A stretch of DNA of 64,000 bases from positions 1-64,000 of the forward strand of contig CAMYUM010000006.1 in the NCBI GenBank assembly GCA_947301965.1, written 5' to 3'. Position numbers and translations under genes: made by a program. Below the pieces are notes generated by a model that saw only the letters and a list, made by a program, of their open reading frames with translations, was not told the DNA's origin and did no database searches. Origin of the DNA: an uncultured Azospirillum sp. GTDB taxonomy: Bacteria > Pseudomonadota > Alphaproteobacteria > RF32 > CAG-239. Each line of letters opens with the position of its first letter. Position 1 is the first letter of the stretch. This document shows, one piece after another, positions 7,915 through 11,149 of this stretch.

Positions 7915-8075
7915 TTTAATGTCCTTGTTTTGATTTGTAATGCCGTTATTTTATTATGTCCCAAGTATAAATCAAGCAATTAATTATTGATGAACACATA
8001 TATTCTAAAGTTTAGCTTTAAAACCAGTCGGCTAAAAATAATATTTTGTATGCAATGTTATGTAATGAGGAAAAA

Positions 8076-8453
8076 ATGTCGGAACAGCGAGTTTTAACCG
8101 AAAAACAATATGATATACTGCACCGCAAAGGAACCGAACCGGCATTTTCCGGAAAATATTATTATTTTCATGAAATCGGAACCTATGTTTGTGCCGCATG
8201 CGGAAATCCGATATTCTCCTCTGAACAGAAGTTTGATTGCGGTTGCGGATGGCCCAGCTTTGATGCCTCACTACCGAAAGGAGTAAAGCTAATGCCGGAT
8301 TATAGCCACGGCATGAGAAGAGTGGAAGTTTTGTGTGCAAATTGTCATGCTCATTTAGGTCACGTGTTTGCTGACGGTTCCACAAAAACAAAAGCCAGAT
8401 ATTGTATAAACTCTTTGGCTATGGATTTCTGCCCTAACCCAGAAAACGAGTGA
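8076..8453 (+). CDS. msrB: Peptide-methionine (R)-S-oxide reductase
   Basis: Repairs methionine-R-sulfoxide in proteins. The 125-residue SelR domain has both zinc CxxC pairs (CAAC and CANC), CGWPSFDA, HAHLGHVF and the catalytic Cys of RYCINSLAM. I start at 8076, where GAGGAAAAA precedes ATG; an in-frame ATG 30 bases upstream has no such site. The 3' end overlaps the convergent hydrolase gene by 20 bp, so no terminator separates them. Confidence 0.95.
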   Translation: MSEQRVLTEKQYDILHRKGTEPAFSGKYYYFHEIGTYVCAACGNPIFSSEQKFDCGCGWPSFDASLPKGVKLMPDYSHGMRRVEVLCANCHAHLGHVFADGSTKTKARYCINSLAMDFCPNPENE

Positions 8454-9357
8454 TTTCTTTTTTGATGGTTTTGCGCAATAACTTGCTACTGTGACCTATA
8501 TCCGGAACAATAACCAATTTTGATTTTGGTAACTTTTTGTGCAAATCATACGCCGCTTTGAGCGGGCAAACCATATCAAGACGATTGTGCACAATCAAAG
8601 TCGGAATGTGCTTAATTATGTCTGTGTTTTGAAGTATGCAGTTATCCTCAAGCATAAAATTTTGTGCACAATAATTAATGTAAATCATGTTGGAACTTAT
8701 ATCATCCTGGGTGATTTTTCGGTTTACGAATTCTGGGGATAATTGTCCGAGCAACCGTTCATAGTTGCCGTAAGTGCTGATAGCCTTGATCTGCTGCCCG
8801 AGATTGTATGAGTTCATCATTTTGGCAAAACGTTGTGCCAAATTAAGTTTTTTGTTTTTGGGAGCCGAGGCTTCAAGTTTTTCGAGCATATCGGGATAGA
8901 AAAGACCATTGCCTTCTTCCATCCATTTTTTATTGTCAGAATCGGCAAGAAATATTTGACTGAGCAGCAGCTTTTCAACCGTATTGGGATTACGCATCGC
9001 AAATAACAAAGCGAGAGTTGAACCCCACGAACCGCCACGCACAATCAAAGGCTTTTTAATATTAAGATATTTAATCAGCCTTTCGGCATCTTCCAAAGCT
9101 GCAATCGAATCGTTGTTTTCCATCTCGCCGGCAGGCATAGACTTGCCGCAACCGCGTTGATCAAACATGATTACACGATATTTTTTGCGGTCAAATGCCG
9201 CGGCTCTGTACGCTTTTGAACAGCTGCCGGGACCACCGTGAAAAATAAGCACGGGCTTTCCGTCCGGATTGCCGAGTTCCATAAAATAGATACGATGACC
9301 TTCTTTTTCCGGCAGATACCCGGAATTAAAAACTCGAGGGGTGAATAAGTTAAACAT
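8434..9357 (-). CDS. pip: Proline iminopeptidase-like alpha/beta hydrolase
   Basis: A 307-residue S33-family peptidase that should release N-terminal proline from peptides. It shows the oxyanion motif FHGGPGSCSKAY, FDQRGCGKSMPAG, the nucleophile elbow VRGGSWGSTLALLFA (Ser), an Asp in HNRLDMVCPL and a final His in PDIGHSS. Cytoplasmic: no signal peptide. The match to proline iminopeptidase rests on the GGSWGSTLAL signature; other S33 aminopeptidases share it. It is tail-to-tail with msrB with a 20 bp overlap. Confidence 0.82.
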   Translation of the reverse strand: MFNLFTPRVFNSGYLPEKEGHRIYFMELGNPDGKPVLIFHGGPGSCSKAYRAAAFDRKKYRVIMFDQRGCGKSMPAGEMENNDSIAALEDAERLIKYLNIKKPLIVRGGSWGSTLALLFAMRNPNTVEKLLLSQIFLADSDNKKWMEEGNGLFYPDMLEKLEASAPKNKKLNLAQRFAKMMNSYNLGQQIKAISTYGNYERLLGQLSPEFVNRKITQDDISSNMIYINYCAQNFMLEDNCILQNTDIIKHIPTLIVHNRLDMVCPLKAAYDLHKKLPKSKLVIVPDIGHSSKLLRKTIKKEITRFLG

Positions 9358-9426: not shown

Positions 9427-10224
9427 ATGCGGATGGTAATAAATTCTGATTTTGACAAATGCTCTAATTGGGCTGCGGATTACGTGGCTTATAAGATAAA
9501 GGCAGCCAAACCTACAAAAGAAAAACCTTTTGTTATGGCTCTGCCGGCGGGTAGTTCTCCCCTCGGAATGTTTAAACGTTTAATTGATATATTCAAAAGA
9601 GGAAAAATTTCTTTCCAAAATGTTGTGTTCTTCAATATGTGCGAATATGTCGGTTTATCCAAAAACGATAAACACAGTTTTAATTATTTTTTATGGGATA
9701 AATTTTTTAATCATATCGATATAAAAAAGAAAAATATTCACCTTATGGACGGCGAAACCAAAGACTTTGCCAAAGAATGTAATGATTATGAAAAACTAAT
9801 TCGCAGCTACGGCGGCATAGATCTTTTGATTGCCGGTGTCGGCGAAGACGGGCATATCGCATTTAATGAGCCGGGGTCGTCACTGGCTTCGCGTACCAGA
9901 CTCAAGGCTCTTACCCGTGATACTATACGTACAAATGCAAAATATTTTGACAATAATGAGGATAATGTACCAAAGTTGGCAATCACTATCGGTATTGCAA
10001 CAATTATGGATGCACGCGAGGTAATGGTAATTGCCGCCGGAGATAAAAAAGCCGAGGCGTTGCAGGGAGCAGTTGAAGGCAGTGTTAATCATATGTGTCC
10101 GTTGAGTATTTTACAGATGCATCCTCACGCTATAATTGCCTGCGATGAAGAAGCCACTTCAAAGCTGAAAGCCAGTACCGTTCGTTATTTTAATGATAAT
10201 GAGGAATCAAAATACGGAAGATAA
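9427..10224 (+). CDS. nagB: Glucosamine-6-phosphate deaminase homologue with Asp72 replaced by Cys
   Basis: A 265-residue protein collinear with NagB, which converts glucosamine-6-phosphate to fructose-6-phosphate and ammonia. It has GVGEDGHIAFNEPGSSLASR with Asp141, His143 and Glu148 at the same numbers as in E. coli, and AVEGSVNHMCPLSI. The expected NMDEYVGL is NMCEYVGL: the codon for residue 72, the proton-abstracting Asp of the family, is TGC. The sugar-phosphate loop is also unusual (PAGSSPLGMF where NagB has a TGGTP-type loop). The start has AAGGAAG upstream. There is no nagA beside it; lpxA follows after about 100 bp. Activity as a deaminase is therefore uncertain. Confidence 0.85.
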   Translation: MRMVINSDFDKCSNWAADYVAYKIKAAKPTKEKPFVMALPAGSSPLGMFKRLIDIFKRGKISFQNVVFFNMCEYVGLSKNDKHSFNYFLWDKFFNHIDIKKKNIHLMDGETKDFAKECNDYEKLIRSYGGIDLLIAGVGEDGHIAFNEPGSSLASRTRLKALTRDTIRTNAKYFDNNEDNVPKLAITIGIATIMDAREVMVIAAGDKKAEALQGAVEGSVNHMCPLSILQMHPHAIIACDEEATSKLKASTVRYFNDNEESKYGR

Positions 10225-10321: not shown

Positions 10322-11149
10322 ATGAGCAAAATTCATCCCACAGCAATTATCGAAGACGGCGCACAAATTGCCGAAACCGCAGAAATCGGACCTTTTTGTG
10401 TAATCAGTTCCAAAGCAAAAATCGGTGAAAAAGTTCGTTTGTTATCAAATGTTACGATTATGGGCGATACCACAATCGGTGAAGGAACAGTAGTTTTTCC
10501 GGGCGCGGTTTTGGGCGCCGGACCGCAAGACCACGGTAACGAATTTCAGGAAGGAGCTCGCCTGGTTATAGGCAAACGTAATGTAATCAGAGAGAATGTT
10601 ACCATGCAATGCGGAACTCCGAAAGGACAAAACCCGATCCGCGGTGAAGAACCCGAAAAATTGATTACCCGTGTCGGAGATGACGGAATGTTTATGGTTA
10701 ACAGCCATGTGGCTCATGACTGTGTTGTCGGCAACAATGTAATTATGACCAATAATGCGGTTATCGGCGGACACACCCGTGTCGGTGACGGTGCCATTTT
10801 GGGCGGCAACTGCGCTGTTCACCAGTTCTGCCGTATCGGGCGCAAAGCAATGATCGGCGGTATGTCAGGAGTTACACGTGATGTTATTCCGTTTGCCATG
10901 GTTACCGGTGATCGTGCCAAATTGCGCGGTCTGAACCTTATCGGCATGAAGCGCAGCGGTATGGACGAAGCAACCGTAAAAAGTATTACCAGAGCTTATA
11001 TGTACATATTTAAGTCAAGCGAGGATAATTTTGAAACTCGTGTAAACAAGGCTAAAGAAAAATATAAAGACAATGCTTTGGTTATGGAGATTGTTGAATT
11101 TATTGAAGATGCAATGGTCGGAAAACGCAATATTTTAACCGCAGAATAG
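10322..11149 (+). CDS. lpxA: UDP-N-acetylglucosamine acyltransferase
   Basis: First step of lipid A synthesis: transfers a 3-hydroxyacyl chain from acyl carrier protein to UDP-GlcNAc. The 275-residue left-handed beta-helix protein has hexapeptide repeats (IHPTAIIEDGAQIAETAEIG onward), the catalytic His in MVNSHVAHDC, and GGHTRVGDGAILGGNCAVHQ, then a helical C-terminus. AGAGGA precedes the ATG. It is followed at once by lpxI and lpxB; the usual upstream partners lpxD and fabZ are not here. Confidence 0.96.
   Translation: MSKIHPTAIIEDGAQIAETAEIGPFCVISSKAKIGEKVRLLSNVTIMGDTTIGEGTVVFPGAVLGAGPQDHGNEFQEGARLVIGKRNVIRENVTMQCGTPKGQNPIRGEEPEKLITRVGDDGMFMVNSHVAHDCVVGNNVIMTNNAVIGGHTRVGDGAILGGNCAVHQFCRIGRKAMIGGMSGVTRDVIPFAMVTGDRAKLRGLNLIGMKRSGMDEATVKSITRAYMYIFKSSEDNFETRVNKAKEKYKDNALVMEIVEFIEDAMVGKRNILTAE

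Follow-up and report, generated by a model that had tools for sequence, protein, structure and literature searches.

A conserved NagB paralogue without the catalytic Asp72 has more than one origin in a family of Alphaproteobacteria

The window, by which we mean the whole 64,000-nucleotide stretch analysed here (contig CAMYUM010000006.1 of an uncultured Azospirillum sp., positions 1 to 64,000), encodes a paralogue of NagB in which the catalytic Asp72 is replaced by Cys. Such Asp72-less paralogues are real and conserved and have more than one origin, hence they are more than a curiosity, and the mechanism that we propose for them is a reading of their sequences. In E. coli NagB, Asp72 carries out the proton transfer between C2 and C1, and His143, Asp141 and Glu148 act in ring opening. 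Since the general base is lost, ordinary GlcN6P deaminase activity is unlikely for the paralogue, which agrees with the suspicion voiced in the first-pass annotation of this DNA; the alternatives named there, another reaction or a regulator, are reasonable possibilities. Our tentative proposal, to which we give somewhat less than an even chance, is that it would no longer deaminate GlcN6P and would bind a phosphosugar, most likely as a sensor or regulator. No description of NagB paralogues without Asp72, of Asp72 mutants or of NagB pseudoenzymes was found in the open literature.

The gene (9427..10224; plus strand, as are all features below unless stated otherwise) has an ATG start and an intact open reading frame of 265 amino acids. 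It matches PF01182 with 83 bits and, over its full length, the NCBIfam nagB equivalog TIGR00502 with 363.4 bits (cut-off 236.9), and would accordingly be labelled an active deaminase by automatic annotation; database labels of this kind on Asp72-less proteins are probably wrong. The alignment with residues 2-260 of E. coli NagB (1cd5) is gapless and places the Cys of NMCEYVGL (codon TGC, 9640..9642) at position 72, which establishes the replacement first noticed from the letters alone as well as the retention of the ring-opening triad Asp141, His143 and Glu148 (codons 141-148, 9847..9870). A sequencing error, already considered improbable in the first-pass annotation, is excluded by the presence of Cys72 in two separately assembled sister genomes and in a fourth member that is 75% identical (codons TGC, TGT and TGC), the next members of the clade having Asn or Val. 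Several further changes had been missed: Thr68, found in canonical copies, is replaced by Phe (TTC, 9628..9630), Tyr85 by Phe (TTT, 9679..9681), Arg172 of the lid by Lys (9940..9942; common to the window protein, its two sisters and the copies of genus g4) and Trp224 by Cys (10096..10098; throughout the paralogue clade). It can be mentioned that Cys224 also occurs in a few canonical copies from other genera. The loop PAGSSPLGMF had been called unusual, and this is true of the clade-specific Ala41 (GCG, 9547..9549), which is Thr in canonical copies, but not of Ser43, the norm of the family, or of Ser44, also present in canonical copies. Glu73, Phe174 and the phosphate-binding Lys208 (10048..10050) are retained along with the triad, as are all seven residues listed for the GlcNAc6P activator site (Tyr121, Asp141, Glu148, Ser151, Arg158, Lys160 and Tyr254; PMC4281351), of which Ser151, Arg158 and Lys160 are encoded within 9877..9906 (codons 151-160). 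A substitute for the lost acid was also sought, and among the conserved positions changed in the window's clade none has become Asp or Glu. The AlphaFold2 model (pLDDT 95.3) superimposes on the NagB structures 3hn6 and 1dea with TM scores of 0.97-0.98. In comparison with the hexameric allosteric NagB of E. coli (1dea/1cd5) and Borrelia (3hn6), the window protein is thus alike over its whole length (49-53% identity) in fold, phosphate lysine, triad and activator site, and unlike in the replacement of Asp72, Tyr85, Thr41, Thr68 and Arg172 and in not lying beside nagA.

In the genome from which the window comes (1.29 Mb, 21 contigs, 100% complete), covered by family searches and by the reading of stretches, the Pfam family has a single further member (C2:74452-75243), which is 51% identical to the window protein, has Asp72 and Tyr85 and adjoins nagA; this is the canonical second NagB whose possible presence had been raised before. 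Orthologues of the paralogue are found in 11 of 13 genomes of the same genus and are 73-92% identical; four of them have Cys at residue 72, four Asp, two Asn and one Val. The idea that Cys72 might mark a clade was therefore not borne out: position 72 is Cys, Asn, Val or Asp within the genus and Gly, Ala, Thr, Cys or Asn elsewhere, and it is Ala41 together with Cys224 that marks the clade. The members that keep Asp72 already carry Ala41 and Ile68, which indicates that some changes of the pocket preceded the loss of Asp72. We considered whether Cys72 could be a new nucleophile or base and rejected it, given the Asn or Val of orthologues and the Gly, Ala or Thr of other lineages; the position being variable once Asp is lost, no Cys chemistry is implied and the absence of Asp is what matters. 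The rumen is a known habitat of the genus, which is represented in a public collection by contigs of RUG10691, Tb.RUG.69, RUG14090 and the yak-rumen assembly RGIG10214. The motif FNM-x-EY(V/I)GL with a codon for x not starting with G was found in four stretches among 84,980 species genomes, all of the window's genus, in a scan blind to Gly, Ala and Val at position 72 and to motif variants of the g3 and g4 type; for scale, of 398 genomes that sample the phylum, 22 contain the Asp form of the motif.

The loss of Asp72 is not restricted to this genus. We aligned 107 distinct NagB-like proteins from the family to which the window's genome belongs. Of these, 69 have Asp72 as well as Tyr85, the other 38 have neither, and no protein has only one of the two; all 65 canonical copies have both residues. 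The Asp72-less copies fall into three groups: seven from the window's genus, sixteen from genus g3 (Gly, Ala, Thr or Cys at position 72, Phe85) and fifteen from genus g4 (Asn72, Cys85), so that six different residues replace Asp72 across the groups and Tyr85 is always lost as well. The tree requires three changes for the loss of Asp72, and a single origin of the 38 copies was rejected (forced clade 81 lnL units worse, p-AU 0.0027 in the AU test). Asp72 was lost at least twice independently in these related bacteria. As the tree offers only two independent pairs on well-supported branches, a sign test of the pairing between Asp72 and Tyr85 cannot reach significance, and the evidence for it amounts to two or three events instead of 38. 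The 65 canonical copies share 107 conserved columns, of which 41, 68, 72, 85 and 92 are changed in all three groups. With column 72 excluded, four parallel columns are observed where 0.36 are expected when the changed columns of each group are drawn at random (fraction 0.00026), a significance somewhat overstated because the draw assumes that all conserved columns are equally changeable; columns 41, 68 and partly 92 are also changed in the sub-clade that keeps Asp72. Pairwise dN/dS (NG86) is 0.02-0.04 in the Cys72 trio, below the 0.056-0.066 that the canonical copies in these three genomes give, and 0.006-0.04 for the g4 copies where computable, these values being approximate with synonymous sites near saturation. 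The Asp72-less genes are under strong purifying selection and are not decaying. Losing Asp72 and Tyr85 in more than one lineage under such selection amounts to a natural experiment on a NagB active site without its base.

Without Asp72 the proton transfer between C2 and C1 should fail, while ring opening could persist. The loss of the carboxylate and of the Tyr and Thr hydroxyls would leave a neutral and more hydrophobic pocket, suited to a ligand without a charged amine at C2, the group that Asp72 would face; a hexose 6-phosphate or an N-acetylhexosamine 6-phosphate would be the likely ligand. A conformational change driven by such a ligand, which is already a property of NagB itself, could then serve to sense or regulate amino-sugar flux. 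Four elements of this proposal are inferred: that deaminase activity is gone, which ligand is bound, that the protein is a sensor, and what this sensor acts on. It is in accordance with the repeated and parallel replacement of Asp72 and Tyr85 under low dN/dS, and with the retention of the fold, Lys208, the triad and the activator site. The canonical copy beside nagA leaves the paralogue free for another role, and none of the 38 Asp72-less copies adjoins nagA in the stretches read. There is also a precedent in the effector domains of the SorC family (CggR, DeoR, LsrR), which bind phosphosugars with a NagB fold and without deaminase catalysis (PMC11229326), the structural match to them being weak. 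Unlike these regulators, the window protein matched no DNA-binding or other output domain in the NCBIfam and Pfam profile search, and PF04198 (Sugar-bind) stays at 16.4 bits, below its cut-off of 27, which counts against a sensor, as does the triad, whose conservation in 37 of the 38 copies exceeds what a pure sensor requires. The trypanosomatid prozymes, paralogues that have lost catalysis and activate a partner (PMC5201418, PMC3663545), resemble the present case in being conserved without a catalytic residue in a genome that also encodes an active copy. However, no canonical NagB or nagA was found in g4 or in genome G012, which leaves a sensor there without a canonical NagB to regulate, and a regulatory subunit of canonical NagB was rejected as a general role.

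Gene neighbourhoods were compared in the window and nine other genomes of the genus. The rhamnose genes rfbABCD lie nearby in all ten, as do msrB and/or the prolyl-aminopeptidase gene; in the window these two are found at 8046..8453 (msrB, methionine sulfoxide reductase B) and, divergently, at 8434..9357 on the minus strand (prolyl-aminopeptidase-like, 233 bits, just below the family cut-off of 260). The placement before lpxA, to which attention had been drawn, holds for the window, where lpxA (10322..11149) is the next gene, but it is found in only three of the ten neighbourhoods, those of the three closest species, and is thus local; an ancestral functional link to lpxA was rejected. Across genera no constant neighbour was found, which also speaks against a sensor. 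The g4 Asn72 copies are flanked by a membrane glycosyltransferase-like gene and glyA.

A less probable but still serious possibility is that the paralogue would be a different enzyme, which would use His143, Asp141 and Glu148 to open the ring of a substrate that carries no amine at C2; it could be an anomerase, for instance, or an isomerase with another base. The triad retained in three groups under strong selection points in this direction, and the parallel remodelling at identical positions suggests a specific new function. However, the neighbourhood offers no candidate substrate, phosphoglucose isomerase is already present in the genome, and a 6-phosphogluconolactonase finds no support, as the pgl model gives 70.6 bits against a cut-off of 124.45.

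It is rather unlikely, though worth stating, that in this GlmS-poor family, which where read has lost the acetyltransferase half of GlmU, repeated rebuilding of NagB at the same few active-site positions gave rise to phosphosugar proteins of a new class, perhaps GlcN6P synthases that depend on ammonia but not on Asp72. The narrower claim, that the paralogue would replace GlmS by forming GlcN6P out of Fru6P and ammonia with a base other than Asp72, we consider unlikely. Cell wall and LPS usually draw their GlcN6P from GlmS. This enzyme exceeds the cut-off in 33 of 152 genomes of the family (a 34th has a 275-bit fragment; it is present in 14 of 14 control genomes) and was not found in the window's genome (G000), although GlmM and lpxA are present there. 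GlmM was detected in all ten genomes tested, in nine over the cut-off. GlmU was matched with only its first half in these ten. In G000, G029, G025 and G012 GlmU is a stand-alone uridylyltransferase of 243-256 amino acids (L136:2795-3529, L137:1937-2704, L138:2187-2915 and L143:2121-2855), and no acetyltransferase domain was found beside it in these four genes. The UDP-GlcNAc supply of the family looks rewired, and the scarcity of GlmS together with the absent half of GlmU leaves a biosynthetic role open. Searches of G012, G029, G067, G058, G069 and G070 gave no NagB besides the Asp72-less protein, no nagA and no GlmS. No nagA was found in 15 of the 18 g4 genomes or in G012, G010 and G025.

A GlcN6P-making role has a precedent, as a mere possibility here, in the Giardia GlcN6P deaminase, which shares the NagB fold, is not activated by GlcNAc6P and works in the aminating direction (PMC4281351); it differs in having four of the seven activator residues, all of which the window protein keeps. 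The NagB reaction, with an equilibrium constant of about 0.2 M, has been called easily reversible (PMC11593775). By microscopic reversibility, however, the base is needed in both directions, and the canonical NagB of the same genome could do the job. Furthermore, NagB, NagA and GlmS were all not found in G025, G139, G115, G169, G170 and G172 (90-99% complete), which means that the family must have another supply of amino sugars, probably salvage, so the Asp72-less protein need not be the maker of GlcN6P. Five g4 genomes hold GlmS alongside an Asn72 copy. A simple complementarity of GlmS and NagB found no support, since several near-complete genomes lack both. The source of GlcN6P in this family becomes directly testable. 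As a separate observation, no phosphoglucose isomerase (PF00342) was found in G006, a 100% complete genome of the window's genus, while the other eight genomes tested have it.

That Asp72 is dispensable and the remaining residues suffice for ordinary deamination is improbable: the window protein does pass the nagB equivalog cut-off and keeps the other named residues, but Asp72 is present in 65 of 65 canonical copies, Tyr85 and other positions change alongside it, and no copy lies beside nagA. A decaying pseudogene or an assembly error, which the missing catalytic residue and one eroded g3 copy that has additionally lost Asp141 and Lys160 might suggest, has a practically negligible probability and is refuted for the window gene by low dN/dS, intact reading frames, parallel changes and Cys72 in the sister genomes.

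Some individual copies deserve mention. The g3 copy just referred to (L104:1456-2289; Thr72, Phe85, Glu141, Thr160, Cys224) is the most eroded member and sits on a long branch. In the phosphate loop (PMGDTP) of the g4 Asn72 copies (L030, L031, L066-L081), Asp43 brings a new acid into the substrate pocket. Two copies of genus g14, beside nagA (L118:1566-2348 and L119:1502-2281), retain Asp72 and have an altered activator site (Thr151, His158 and Gln160; Glu160), and judging from these residues they are perhaps no longer allosteric.
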